A stretch of 51,295 nucleotides of DNA from NCBI GenBank assembly GCA_947623875.1, contig CANQII010000002.1, positions 1 through 51,295 on the forward strand. Reading direction: 5' to 3'. The position numbers and the translations under genes were made by a program. Of this stretch, positions 30,258-35,091 are shown piece after piece. A model generated the notes under the pieces. That model searched no databases. It had not been told where the DNA came from and worked only from the letters and a program-made list of their open reading frames with translations. This DNA is from an uncultured Oscillospiraceae bacterium (GTDB taxonomy: Bacteria; Bacillota; Clostridia; Oscillospirales; Oscillospiraceae). The first letter of the stretch is position 1; the number at the start of each line of letters is the position of its first letter.

Positions 30258-30698
30258 TCACAGCTGCTTGGTGAAGCAGATGATCCGATTCGCCTCCACA
30301 AAGCCCGTCTTCAGATGGAAGTGCAGGCTGTCCTCGTTGTCCAACTCGCAGTCGCTGGCAAATTCCATACAGCCCTTGGCTTTCGTCCATCTCTGGCACG
30401 CCTCCAGAAGCTGGGATGCCACTCCCTGCCGCCGGAATTCCTCCCGCACAAAGATGCCCTCCAAATACCCTACAGGGCAGGTCTCGGTGCCCTCTACGTA
30501 GTCCCGCCGCAGCTGGCACTGGGCAAACCCCACCGGCTGATTGCCCTCATAGGCGAGAAAGCAGGCGGCGTTATCGTTGTTCATCACCAAGTCTGTGAAG
30601 GACTCCGCGAACTCCAATACCGTGCTGCCTTCCCACAATTGAACCGCCAGCTCTGCCAGAGCTGCCGTCTCTGCACTTGTGGCTCGTCTGATCACCAT
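30258..30698 (-). CDS. AAC(6')-like aminoglycoside N-acetyltransferase (GNAT)
   Basis: 146 residues, a single GNAT domain. LRRDYVEGTETCPVGYLEGI, VREEFRRQGVASQLLEACQ, EFASDCELDNEDSLHFHLK and GFVEANRIICFTKQL follow the aminoglycoside 6'-N-acetyltransferase type closely, which would acetylate the 6'-amine of kanamycin-class drugs. Activity is inferred from motif likeness. ATG 30698 has AGGAGG nine bases upstream; the longer track start overlaps the phosphatase. It overlaps that gene by seven bases and ends at a strong terminator. A truncated near-identical copy lies 4.6 kb away. Confidence 0.82.
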   Translation of the reverse strand: MVIRRATSAETAALAELAVQLWEGSTVLEFAESFTDLVMNNDNAACFLAYEGNQPVGFAQCQLRRDYVEGTETCPVGYLEGIFVREEFRRQGVASQLLEACQRWTKAKGCMEFASDCELDNEDSLHFHLKTGFVEANRIICFTKQL

Positions 30699-31162
30699 GA
30701 TTTGTTTCCTCCTGTACTCCACGCATTTACACAGGCAGCGATCTCTCCGTGCAAATCGTAGGTCTCGATGCCCGTGCACCGCTGCGCATCGTCAAAATCA
30801 AACTCCACGATCCAGGGCATGATCGTCTTGATCCTCTGAAAGTCATCGTACCCAAAGGTTGGGCGAAAAGAGCGGATCACGGTACACAAAGCCGTCCCAT
30901 GGCTCCCGATGACGATGTTCTTCCCTGCGTGCCGGTCCAGGAGATACCGGAGGACCACCAGGTTCCTAATCTGCACCTCCTGCAGGCTCTCCCCGTCCAG
31001 CCGTTTGAAGGTGACGTCCTCCCACAGTCTCCTGGCAAAGGCGTCGAAATCATCGATCCAGCCGCTGTCCACCTTTCTCTCCCGGAAGGCATCCATGACA
31101 CGAATCTCATACCCGAAGCGGTCTGCAAAGTCCCGGACAGTGTCCACCGCCCTCTTGTACGG
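30472..31162. repeat. Direct repeat copy 2 (691 bp)
   Basis: Gap-free partner of 25903-26593. This copy lies within two intact genes, so it is probably the parental one. Confidence 0.9.
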
Positions 31163-31312
31163 GCTGGAATAAACCGCATCAATCTCCTTGTCCTTCAGAA
31201 ATGCGGTCACAAGCGCTCTGTCTTGCATTCCTTGGGGAGACAGCTCCCGCAGGGCGTCATCGTGGTTGCTGTAGTTCGGCTCCGCATGCCGGACAAAATA
31301 GACTCGTGTCAC
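30692..31312 (-). CDS. Histidine phosphatase family protein
   Basis: 206 residues of the phosphoglycerate-mutase-like superfamily. The catalytic YFVRHAEPNYS lies at the N-terminus. YSSPYKRAVDT carries the second Arg, and VIGSHGTALCTVI the second His. The substrate is unknown. The start is GTG 31312 with GGGGGAG upstream; the 24 extra residues in the track come from the upstream gene. It begins 10 bases after the second transposase-like gene stops and overlaps the acetyltransferase, so the genes form one run. Confidence 0.88.
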   Translation of the reverse strand: MTRVYFVRHAEPNYSNHDDALRELSPQGMQDRALVTAFLKDKEIDAVYSSPYKRAVDTVRDFADRFGYEIRVMDAFRERKVDSGWIDDFDAFARRLWEDVTFKRLDGESLQEVQIRNLVVLRYLLDRHAGKNIVIGSHGTALCTVIRSFRPTFGYDDFQRIKTIMPWIVEFDFDDAQRCTGIETYDLHGEIAACVNAWSTGGNKSW

Positions 31313-31322
31313 GGACTCCCCC

Positions 31323-32696
31323 CTACTGGATTCCCAGCGAGGCCAGATCCGTGGGGTCGAAGCCAAACTTCCGGCACATCGCATCCAGGTCCTCCGGGAT
31401 CTGCGGGACCACCCACTTCCCGTTCAGGCACAGGCAGTGGACGCCGCTCAGCCGGCCGTACAGCGCCTGGGGTGTGATGGGCTTTGCACGGCGAACCTTG
31501 CGGATGTGCGCCCATGTATCTGCAATCATCTGGCTGGCCAGATGGTTCAGGAACAGCCAGCTCTTCTCCATGAACTTGTCCTCGAGATAGTCAGTATCCT
31601 GGGGCAGCAGGGTGTCAAAGGGCTGGAAAAGCTGCTCCATCTGCTGGCGAAGCTTGTACAGCTGATATACCTTTTTCTCCGGCAGGTTCAGCCGATAGGT
31701 CTGCAGGGTGATGGTTCCGTGGGCCTTCCTCCCGCCTGCCAGCCGCTCTTCCTCCGAGACCTGCTCCAGGCTGCCCGTTCCATCAGCAGAATAGGTCGGC
31801 AGGAAATGTTCCACTGGCTCACTGGGTATGATGGGATCTTCGCCCAGTGCCCCGATCGTGTCCCGCCTCATACGGAAACAGTCATCACAGGCCCAGACGT
31901 ACATATTCAGATAAGCCGTCCTGCAGATATCCCCTTGGCGCACAGAATGATACGAAACATCCCTCACGCCCCCTTTTGCGCTCTCCGTATACTCCTTGAC
32001 ATGATCCAGCAGCGGTTCCTTTGCCGCATCCGTGCCCCGCCGCAGCCGCACGATGTACGGGATCCCCATCTCCTCCAACTGCGTCCTGAGGGGATCCCCG
32101 GCAGCTTCCCTGCCGCCGATTCCGATCAGCTGCTTCGCCATCCTCATGTTCTCGCACTCTGTCCAAAAGGCAACCCGGCCAAATTCATAGGAGGAATGGT
32201 GGCCAAAGTACATCGGCATCCCCACTGTCCCATCCTCGTTTGCGGTAAAGGCGTACAGCACGTTCAGCTGGTCCAGATGGTACGCTTTACCGGGATGCCC
32301 GGCGTTATCTGGGAGCGGCTCTCGGATGTCCCGCAGCATCCGGTTCCCGTCCAGCATGAGATAGATGGTGCGATCCGTGATGTCCGTAGACATGTACCAG
32401 TAGGCAACATAGTACACCCCCTGACGGAATAGACGCACCATGTTCTGCTTGCTCAGCGAGAGGCTGGGAAAGAGAACCCGCAGGATCGAGCGTTTGTAGC
32501 AGTTCTCCATCTCCGAAAGCGGGCAGTTGTAGATTGCACGCAGCAAGACCATCGCGTAGAATGTGCTCCAGCAATCATGCAAGCCCCTCCGCAGCTTGTC
32601 CCGCATCTCCTTCGTGCGGGAATACAGGTACAGCACAGGCCCTGCGTCCAGGACCTCCCCTACGGCAAATTCCTTCTGTTCCATCTTCTGATTCAT
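31323..32696 (-). CDS. Transposase-like protein B (IS1634/IS4-type, second Asp lost)
   Basis: 457 residues from ATG 32696 (GGAGG six bases upstream). It aligns along its length with the preceding 565-residue protein but lacks that protein's N-terminal domain. The first catalytic Asp is kept (YLMLDGNRML), as is the Glu (YKLRQQMEQLFQPF). The second Asp position is Gly (IGGREAAGD, against IGDKETART in protein A). It should therefore be inactive alone. It sits 28 bases downstream of protein A with its own ribosome site. A dead IS gene or a domesticated DNA-binding protein are the alternatives. Confidence 0.78.
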   Translation of the reverse strand: MNQKMEQKEFAVGEVLDAGPVLYLYSRTKEMRDKLRRGLHDCWSTFYAMVLLRAIYNCPLSEMENCYKRSILRVLFPSLSLSKQNMVRLFRQGVYYVAYWYMSTDITDRTIYLMLDGNRMLRDIREPLPDNAGHPGKAYHLDQLNVLYAFTANEDGTVGMPMYFGHHSSYEFGRVAFWTECENMRMAKQLIGIGGREAAGDPLRTQLEEMGIPYIVRLRRGTDAAKEPLLDHVKEYTESAKGGVRDVSYHSVRQGDICRTAYLNMYVWACDDCFRMRRDTIGALGEDPIIPSEPVEHFLPTYSADGTGSLEQVSEEERLAGGRKAHGTITLQTYRLNLPEKKVYQLYKLRQQMEQLFQPFDTLLPQDTDYLEDKFMEKSWLFLNHLASQMIADTWAHIRKVRRAKPITPQALYGRLSGVHCLCLNGKWVVPQIPEDLDAMCRKFGFDPTDLASLGIQ

Positions 32697-32724
32697 TTCG
32701 CGCCTCCATCTCCATTTCGTGGTC

Positions 32725-34422
32725 CTATCCAACGCCCAGAGAGCCGATATCCGTGGGGTCAAAGCCGAGCTTTCTGCAGATCGCATCCACATCCGCATGG
32801 ACCGGCGGGAACATCCATCTCCCGTCCACACGGCAGCACTGGACGTAGTTCAAGTTCATCAGCCAGGACCGGGGATTCTTCTCCTGCTCCCCCACTGCAC
32901 GGAGCTGGGCCGCAGTCTCTGCGATCATCTGGCCGGCGAGGTAGTTCAGGAAGAGCCATCCCTCAGCGCCGAACCCGTCCTCCAGATCCAGGGCATCCTG
33001 CTGCAGAAGCGCGTCAAAGGGCTGGAAAAGATCCTCCATCTGCTGCCGAAGCTTGTACAGCCGATACCCGTCTTCCGGGGAGAGCGCCTCATCGTCCGTC
33101 CGCAAGGCAAGGGAGCCATACGTCCTCTGCCCGCCGGCTTCTCGCTCTTCCTCCGAAGCCGCACAGAGCAGATATCCATCCTCTCCAAGGGACAGAGAAT
33201 AATTGTGCTCCACAGGCTCTGGACAAACCGTTCCCGTCTCACGGGTCAGGCGTTCCCTTGCCCGTCTCCGGCAGTCTGCATCGTACTCCTCCGCCTGCAG
33301 GTGCAGGTCCAGGTAGGCAAAGAGCCTGTCCTTCTCTCCGTCCAGGGATGTGCAGCCGATCACCCGGTCCCGCTCCAGAATGTACCCGGGATAGGCCTCC
33401 AGCGCACCAAAGGAGACGTCTTTCGTCTCCGGACTGTCCCGCCGCAGCGGGATGAGGTACGGAATCCTGAGGGATTTCAGCAGCTGCAAACACTCCGTCC
33501 TCGCCGTCTCCTTGTCTCCGATGACCGTGAGGCCCTTTGGCATCCCCATCTCTAACCGGGTCATGGCGAGGTTTAATTCATCGATGACATTGCCGTCCAC
33601 CTGCCTGTAGAAGCAGGGCATTCCCACCGTCTTGTCCGCGTTGGCGGCAAAGGCAGCCAGTACGTTGAAGCCATCGTAGTACTCGGCGTCCTCATACGGC
33701 AAAAACAGGTACTCTGCCAGCCCACCGGCTGCCCGCAGAAACCTCTCTCCATTCAGAATCAGGTACAGGGTGCGCTCCTCTGCGTCCATCTGCAGATACT
33801 TGCTGGTATGCCGCCGCGTCAGGCTTCTGCGGAACAAGTCGGACAAGGTCTTCCTGTCCAGGGAGATGTCCGGGTAGAGCTTGCTCAGTAAGGAGCGCTC
33901 CAGATCCAGCTCCATCTCAGACAGCGTACAGGTGTAGATTGCCCGCAGCATGGCCATACAGTAGATCCCGGCCCACTTCCGCGGGAAGACCTTCTGCAGT
34001 TGGGTCCGCATCCTCTCGGTCCGCCCGATGAGGTACACCACGGCCCCTACATTCAGGATCTCCTCCACCTGTCCAGCGGTTCTGGCCTTCGGGGCATGCA
34101 CCTCTTGGCCGTCCGCTGTCCCACAGTCTGAACCCGGCACACTCGTCGAAAGCTGGGTATCCTCAGTGTTCTCCCTTGCCGCTGTTTCCCCGGCAGGCGA
34201 TTTCTCCTCTGCAGCCCCTTTGCGGTGTTTGCTGGGCACCAGTCCCTCCGGCGTAATTCTTCCGATGATGGAACCCGATCGCTTTATTTTCCGCTTCGTT
34301 ACGGGATCCCAGGTGCTCTCTCTGTTGTACAGATACCAATTCCCGGTGATGTACTTAATCTCTGTGTTCTTCGGCTTCTCAAAGTTCTGGACGTAGTCCG
34401 GCCGTTCGGTCTTTCGTTCCAT
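32725..34422 (-). CDS. Transposase-like protein A (IS1634/IS4-type, first Asp lost)
   Basis: 565 residues. The N-terminal NWYLYNRESTWDPVTKRKIK is typical of IS1634-like transposases. A low-complexity linker (about 70-115) precedes the RNase H-like core. The second Asp (GLTVIGDKETA) and the Glu (YKLRQQMEDLFQPF) are present, but the first Asp is Asn (YLILNGERFL). The C-terminal block WMFPPVHADVDAICRKLGFD is shared with protein B. GGGAGG precedes the ATG, 18 bases after the methyltransferase stop. No stop or frameshift is seen, which is unusual for a decaying transposase. Confidence 0.78.
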   Translation of the reverse strand: MERKTERPDYVQNFEKPKNTEIKYITGNWYLYNRESTWDPVTKRKIKRSGSIIGRITPEGLVPSKHRKGAAEEKSPAGETAARENTEDTQLSTSVPGSDCGTADGQEVHAPKARTAGQVEEILNVGAVVYLIGRTERMRTQLQKVFPRKWAGIYCMAMLRAIYTCTLSEMELDLERSLLSKLYPDISLDRKTLSDLFRRSLTRRHTSKYLQMDAEERTLYLILNGERFLRAAGGLAEYLFLPYEDAEYYDGFNVLAAFAANADKTVGMPCFYRQVDGNVIDELNLAMTRLEMGMPKGLTVIGDKETARTECLQLLKSLRIPYLIPLRRDSPETKDVSFGALEAYPGYILERDRVIGCTSLDGEKDRLFAYLDLHLQAEEYDADCRRRARERLTRETGTVCPEPVEHNYSLSLGEDGYLLCAASEEEREAGGQRTYGSLALRTDDEALSPEDGYRLYKLRQQMEDLFQPFDALLQQDALDLEDGFGAEGWLFLNYLAGQMIAETAAQLRAVGEQEKNPRSWLMNLNYVQCCRVDGRWMFPPVHADVDAICRKLGFDPTDIGSLGVG

Positions 34423-34440
34423 CTCGCGCCTCCCGAAATT

Positions 34441-35091
34441 TCAGTGCACCGCCCGCACGCAGCAGGTGTTCTCCCAGCGCTCCAGCACCTCCACCTGGGC
34501 AAACCCGGCCTCCCGGAGAACAGCCATCTCATGCTCCACGGTGAGGGGCGTGTCATAGTGGCAGAGGGTCTCATCCGCAACCCCCTGCTCCTCCTTCAGC
34601 CGCCGGAGCTCCTGGAAGTACTGCCGCTCCTCCGCCTCGCCCTCGGCGAAGTAGTCTGTGAGAAGGAAGAAACCGTCTTTCTTGAGTGCCCGATGCAGCT
34701 TCCGATAGAGTCCCAGCTTCTCCTCCGGGGTGAAGTGGTGGAGGGACTCCACAGACACCGCGGCATCGTAGCGGTTGTCTCCCAGGGGAAGGTCCAGATA
34801 GGACCCGCAGATCAGATGCAGCTTGGGATCCTCCGGCCAGCGGGCCCGGAGCCGGTCCAGCATGGTCTGGGAGAGGTCGATGCCGGTGATCTCCGCCTGG
34901 GGATTTCGGACCCGGTACGGCACCAGCTCCAGACCGGTGCCGCAGCCCAGATCCAGCACTGAGACGGGACCGTCTGGGAGCTGCTCTGCGGTGAAGGGAT
35001 AGAAGACCTTGGCGCCGCCGATCTCCTCCAGCATGTGCTCATCATAGCCATCGATGCGGGCTTTGAAAAAGGCGTCCATGGGTTCCAACAT
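34441..35091 (-). CDS. Class I SAM-dependent methyltransferase
   Basis: 216 residues from ATG 35091 (AGGAGG nine bases upstream). Motif I is VLDLGCGTGLELVPY, motif II is ITGIDLSQTMLDRL, and post-motif YDAAVSVESLHHF is typical of small-molecule methyltransferases. The substrate is not evident. It lies 40 bases after cutC and directly before transposase-like gene A. The 57 N-terminal residues in the track are out-of-frame cutC sequence. Confidence 0.88.
   Translation of the reverse strand: MLEPMDAFFKARIDGYDEHMLEEIGGAKVFYPFTAEQLPDGPVSVLDLGCGTGLELVPYRVRNPQAEITGIDLSQTMLDRLRARWPEDPKLHLICGSYLDLPLGDNRYDAAVSVESLHHFTPEEKLGLYRKLHRALKKDGFFLLTDYFAEGEAEERQYFQELRRLKEEQGVADETLCHYDTPLTVEHEMAVLREAGFAQVEVLERWENTCCVRAVH

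Follow-up and report, generated by a model that had tools for sequence, protein, structure and literature searches.

A tandem pair of transposase-like genes with incomplete catalytic triads in an Oscillospiraceae operon, and the recurrence of its N-terminal domain on metabolic enzymes

Two transposase-like genes within a cutC gene run

The window, by which we mean the whole stretch of 51,295 nucleotides that was analysed, comes from a gut bacterium of the Oscillospiraceae and carries two adjacent genes, A and B, whose products resemble Tn5-fold DDE transposases (Table 1). They belong to a run of genes pointing in one direction, in the order cutC, methyltransferase, A, B, histidine phosphatase and GNAT acetyltransferase, with intergenic gaps of 18 nt between the methyltransferase gene and A, 28 nt between A and B, and about 10 nt between B and the phosphatase gene. 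B starts at an ATG (position 32696), and strong ribosome sites (GGAGGCGCG) were found upstream of both genes. An earlier note on this DNA had described two fully open frames with strong ribosome sites inside a cutC-methyltransferase-phosphatase-acetyltransferase run, and this description holds for both the frames (565 and 458 aa) and the run, which is real and co-directional.

Table 1. Genes, domain and catalytic positions of the A-B locus (window coordinates)
Feature	Position	Strand	Description	Evidence
Gene A	32725..34422	-	565 aa; N-terminal beta domain, low-confidence linker, Tn5-fold catalytic region	Open frame; PF01609, E 1e-7; model match to Tn5
Gene B	31323..32696	-	458 aa; paralogue of A that lacks the N-terminal domain	Open frame; sister of A in the tree, 100/100
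Methyltransferase gene	34441..35091	-	Directly upstream of A	Orthologue in the corresponding position of G029, 86% identical
Histidine-phosphatase-like gene	30692..31312	-	Directly downstream of B	Same neighbour in G029
N-terminal domain of A	34213..34422	-	Residues 1-70	Alignments; four-stranded beta model, pLDDT 83
A Asn224 (AAT)	33751..33753	-	First catalytic Asp position	Alignment; Asp in the G029 orthologue
A Asp303	33514..33516	-	Second catalytic Asp, kept	Alignment
A Glu463	33034..33036	-	Catalytic Glu, kept	Alignment
B Asp116	32349..32351	-	First catalytic Asp, kept	Alignment
B Gly195	32112..32114	-	Second catalytic Asp position	Alignment; same in every B-type gene seen
B Glu354	31635..31637	-	Catalytic Glu, kept	Alignment

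The two proteins are 38-39% identical over about 450 aa, which is far beyond chance, and residues about 9-114 of A, including the N-terminal domain, are absent from B. The Pfam model DDE_Tnp_1 (PF01609) matched A with an E-value of 1e-7 and B weakly, at 1e-3 and under the cut-off. Among NCBIfam models, IS1634 (NF033559) was the best match for both proteins, at 41.6 bits for A and 17.2 bits for B against a cut-off of 100; the pair shares with this family the Y-x2-R-x3-E segment, and the N-terminal domain of A is homologous to that of the family. An AlphaFold2 model of A (pLDDT 76) had the Tn5 (IS50) transposase as its top match in the PDB (1muh and 3ecp; E 1e-4). To locate the catalytic residues, we used an alignment of 13 sequences, comprising A, B and eleven relatives, in which the three motifs read LYLILNGER, VIGDKET and YKLRQQME in A and LMLDGNR, IGGREAA and YKLRQQME in B. 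This agrees with the residues proposed earlier, namely Asn at the first catalytic Asp of A, Gly at the second of B, and a Glu kept in both. In addition, the second-Asp motif of A (DKET) departs from ADKG(F), the consensus among active relatives.

The locus in a second species and selection on both genes

The search for the A-B pair covered the genus (42 genomes), the family (301) and the order (394), and gave the locus in one other genome only, a rabbit-gut Oscillospiraceae MAG (G029) whose contig matches the public MAG Lapin-023 bin47. The locus is thus known from two genomes, both of them MAGs, that of the window being 75% complete in 392 contigs. The flanking genes have an identical order in G029, and identity between the two species is 73% for A, 86% for the methyltransferase and 94% for cutC. 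In G029, A has Asp at the first catalytic position (LILDGGR) and hence a complete triad, and it is followed by two B-type genes, B1 and B2, both with Gly at the second Asp. B1 is intact (IGGRE), while B2 (IGGGE; L024:8149-9701), the closer orthologue of window B with 77% identity in the C-terminal part, is a pseudogene with a TGA at the position of a Trp of window B, followed by a frameshift. B1 is absent from the window and window B is intact, so that each genome holds one intact B-type gene beside A. Judging from these sequences, only the window lineage has Asn in A, while all three B-type genes have Gly. The earlier note had proposed to look for the tandem pair elsewhere and to see whether the substitutions are conserved; the pair does recur and the substitution in B is kept, whereas that in A is confined to the window lineage. 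The data thus do not support complementary loss as a conserved feature, since only its B half is conserved.

We also looked for an empty site by way of the methyltransferase gene. Among the 42 congeners, this gene was found in the window genome (G000) and G029 only, so no state preceding insertion of the array was recovered. A further gene in G029, termed X (L024:11079-13394; 771 codons), lies between A and B1, scores 112 bits against IS1634 and is flanked by 17-nt inverted repeats. Because of these repeats of its own and its IS1634 score, we rejected it as a member of the array and read it as a probable separate insertion between A and B1.

To estimate selection, as the earlier note had suggested for each gene, we compared the two species codon by codon, and both genes turned out to be under purifying selection. 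For A, dN was 0.169 and dS 0.484, giving a dN/dS of 0.35 (Fisher p 1e-17), a value from two sequences that pools the time before and after the Asp-to-Asn change; as the triad of A is complete in G029, A may have been catalytic until recently. For B, the comparison with the C-terminal part of B2 gave a dN/dS of 0.26 (Fisher p 1e-12), an over-estimate for the functional period since B2 is now a pseudogene, and the comparison with B1 gave 0.42 (Fisher p 5e-13). Given that all B-type genes lack the second Asp, their divergence, and the constraint measured across it, post-date this loss. These ratios of 0.26-0.42 among genes that all lack the residue indicate, at the sequence level, that B was selected as a non-catalytic protein. 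The dS of A and B (0.48-0.53) falls within the range of their neighbours (0.33-0.57; cutC 0.33, methyltransferase 0.40, GNAT 0.57), which fits vertical descent. The dN/dS of the neighbours is lower, at 0.10 for cutC and 0.20 for the methyltransferase; the constraint on A and B is therefore loose, with ratios two to three times that of cutC.

Relationship to insertion sequences and possible roles of the pair

Five related single-gene insertion sequences (L064 and L066-L069) are 26-31% identical to A and have complete triads, and in each the gene lies between terminal inverted repeats (TIRs) of 16-28 nt. Their hosts are a member of the Spirochaetia, Sphaerochaeta, a Lachnospiraceae MAG and a horse-gut Clostridia MAG, the last with two copies. 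The same script that found these repeats detected no TIRs flanking the A-B array, and the inverted repeats inside positions 31100-34700, all of them weak (71-87%), do not flank it. The search for terminal repeats proposed earlier thus sets the array apart from the five related elements. Single-gene homologues with full triads, which the earlier note had named as contrary evidence, do exist and carry TIRs; they are distant, however, and lie outside the Oscillospiraceae clade of A and B. No multi-copy element matching A was found, and each genome has a single copy of the pair, at a site shared by the two species. Overall, the window pair differs from IS1634 in being a two-gene operonic array at one site in two species: it scores below the 100-bit cut-off, its triads are incomplete, no TIR was found and there is no sign of mobility, although A of G029 does have a complete triad.

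In the tree, A and B are sisters (100/100) and form, together with two further proteins of the window genome (C45 and C147) and one of G029 (C22), a single Oscillospiraceae-only clade (99/100), which branches beside the Lachnospiraceae element. The rooting and the deepest joins of this tree are less sure, as the two outgroup rows have long branches. A scan of the genome contigs with A as a single protein gave no match, while a search of the same contigs with an alignment of the N-terminal domain gave 14 loci; no relatives were found in viral contigs or plasmids. C147 is frameshifted. The products of C45 (L021:2988-5240) and C22 (L026:2585-4696) are transposase-like, measure 751 and 704 aa and keep all three acidic residues; ahead of the Glu segment, each contains a long coiled-coil insertion that gives weak SMC-like matches. 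Neither gene has a convincing TIR. Finally, the congener G015 carries an IS1634-scoring transposase (L029:229-1743, minus strand) with Asn aligned at the first catalytic position (LIVNGTL), an alignment that is unsure owing to the long branch of this protein.

The earlier note had judged the pair to be unlike decaying IS copies and possibly domesticated. The synteny in two species, the dN/dS values of 0.35 and 0.26, the lack of TIRs and the retention of an intact B-type gene all bear this out, and two features expected of domesticated transposases are seen, namely an orthologous position in diverged species and, for B, purifying selection after catalytic loss. We therefore favour, with moderate confidence, the interpretation that A and B form an immobile pair of transposase derivatives of the IS1634 group (Tn5 fold), duplicated in tandem and passed on vertically, which works as a putative DNA-binding complex. 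One such transposase would have given rise to A and B by tandem duplication, embedded in the cutC-methyltransferase-phosphatase operon. The B-type genes lack the N-terminal domain and the second Asp, and this state predates the divergence of B1, B2 and window B, while A has kept its N-terminal domain and has the Asn in the window lineage. Such a pair would no longer transpose; A may contact DNA through its N-terminal beta domain, with B as a non-catalytic partner, and the most likely role of the putative complex would be that of a local regulator of its own operon. The presence of A plus one intact B-type gene per genome, a different one in each, is consistent with a requirement for the pair.

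Two alternatives compete most directly with this interpretation, namely slow decay and, for B, a role like that of the Tn5 inhibitor. If the pair were an old IS1634-type tandem that has lost its ends, became immobilised and is drifting, the two substitutions would be early steps of decay, and one would expect features such as the restriction of the change in A to the window lineage, the pseudogenization of B2, a dN/dS of A and B above that of their neighbours and the frameshift in the relative C147. Yet drift sits poorly with two frames that remain open over 565 and 458 codons, with strong ribosome sites and tight operonic spacing, with a dN/dS well below 1 in the B-type genes after catalytic loss, and with an intact B-type gene beside A in both species, and we consider it unlikely. 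The inhibitor role draws on the fold that A shares with Tn5, whose inhibitor is an N-terminally shortened form of the transposase. A would be an active transposase now or until recently, and B, whose lack of the N-terminal domain and of one catalytic Asp would suit an inhibitor, would act in trans as a dominant inhibitor of A or of a related IS; the full triad of A in G029 and the IS1634-type elements with TIRs in that genome (C31 and X) are compatible with this. However, neither TIRs nor a multi-copy element matching A were found, A of the window is catalytically broken, and the second-Asp motif DKET differs from the ADKG(F) of active relatives. Such a trans-acting system appears quite improbable to us. 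In Tn5 itself, both forms of the protein come from one gene between IS ends, whereas A and B are two diverged genes for which no ends were found, and B, unlike the Tn5 inhibitor, lacks the second Asp.

It could also be imagined that A and B complement each other, either by rebuilding one active site or by alternating sites in a hetero-oligomer, given that the losses affect different residues and the genes are adjacent. In the Tn5 fold, all three acidic residues of an active site come from one chain, so that the site of each protein would still lack one metal-binding Asp, and the absence of the A substitution from G029 means that the complementarity is not maintained. Catalytic complementation is thus very hard to credit.

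The N-terminal domain on metabolic enzymes

The model of the N-terminal domain of A consists of four antiparallel strands (pLDDT 83). A fold search against the PDB gave no match below E 0.7 (the best being PC4), and we therefore leave the fold unnamed; a sequence search of solved structures returned chance matches only. Its place in a transposase suggests a putative DNA-binding function. A counterpart of residues 1-66 of A forms the N terminus of unrelated proteins. Both the window genome (C170, L022:2873-5032) and G029 (C3, L025:3217-5376) encode the domain in frame with a flavoenzyme, which is complete (Oxidored_FMN at residues 79-409 plus a pyridine-nucleotide domain) and of the BaiCD/Old-Yellow type, the nearest models being BaiCD and the long-form bilirubin reductase, both under cut-off. 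The two fusions are 91% identical, and an unfused relative (75%) is present in the congener G040. Within the 64 codons of the domain, we counted 2 non-synonymous and 9 synonymous differences (dN/dS 0.05, p 1e-5), a tighter constraint than on the enzyme part (0.13). On this codon-level evidence, the domain is kept by selection in the flavoenzyme fusion.

A second fusion was seen in G029, in which the domain and a linker precede a complete DHDPS-family aldolase (C68, L027:4345-5535). The corresponding aldolase of the window genome (C201, L100 about 2031-2945) is unfused, 88% identical and syntenic on both sides. Upstream, the two loci are 92% identical through the promoter, and homology resumes within the first enzyme codons; from promoter to enzyme, the distance is about 395 bp in G029 compared to 97 bp in the window genome. 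The fused gene lacks the start codon at which the unfused one begins. We rejected mis-called start sites as an explanation of the enzyme fusions, as no in-frame start lies downstream between the domains; the stretch that joins domain and flavoenzyme contains no ATG, GTG or TTG in frame. The flavoenzyme fusion is known from two MAGs and the aldolase fusion from one (G029), and the latter may be a misassembly. In the tree, the domain of the DHDPS fusion groups with the transposase-like C22 and not with A (91/91), which points to two captures from different family members. No more fusions were found with a profile of the N-terminal domain in 401 family and 391 class genomes, sampled as one per species, or by sequence search in the genus.

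Captured separately by two metabolic enzymes, the domain could act as a portable binding module in this lineage. A broader reading, which we put forward only tentatively and hold to be rather unlikely, is that the captures, at least two in number, yield DNA-tethered or gene-regulating enzymes and that the A-B pair, catalytically dead and of the same origin, binds DNA as a complex and regulates its own operon.

For eukaryotes, the exaptation of transposase parts into host proteins has been amply documented; the prokaryotic examples chiefly concern CRISPR and TnpB-derived systems. As in the eukaryotic host-transposase fusions CSB-PiggyBac (PMC2268245) and the Tc1/mariner HTH captured by F-box genes (PMC12062965), a transposon-derived part sits in frame on a host protein and is conserved in the enzyme fusions described here; unlike in those cases, the setting is bacterial and free of splicing, and an N-terminal beta domain has been captured by metabolic enzymes. 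Likewise, the pair resembles the TldR transcription factors (PMC13418256) as well as Cas1 and Cas9 (reviewed in PMC8987985) in that a mobile-element protein is kept for a cellular role, but it is a Tn5-fold DDE transposase duplicated into a pair, and its cellular role is a proposal. In the open-licence literature, we came across no account of a bacterial metabolic enzyme that carries a transposase domain. One bacterial lineage would combine three steps, that is, immobile duplicated genes in an operon, catalytic loss under selection and capture of the N-terminal domain by enzymes. For the aldolase, the unfused syntenic state in the sister species makes the before and after of a capture comparable.

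Small stand-alone proteins of 137-152 aa (L049:4124-4543; L051:4183-4638; L053:3734-4144, minus strand; L054:2651-3082, minus strand) have a distantly similar N-terminal beta domain, together with an RGRP-like basic stretch and a coiled coil.
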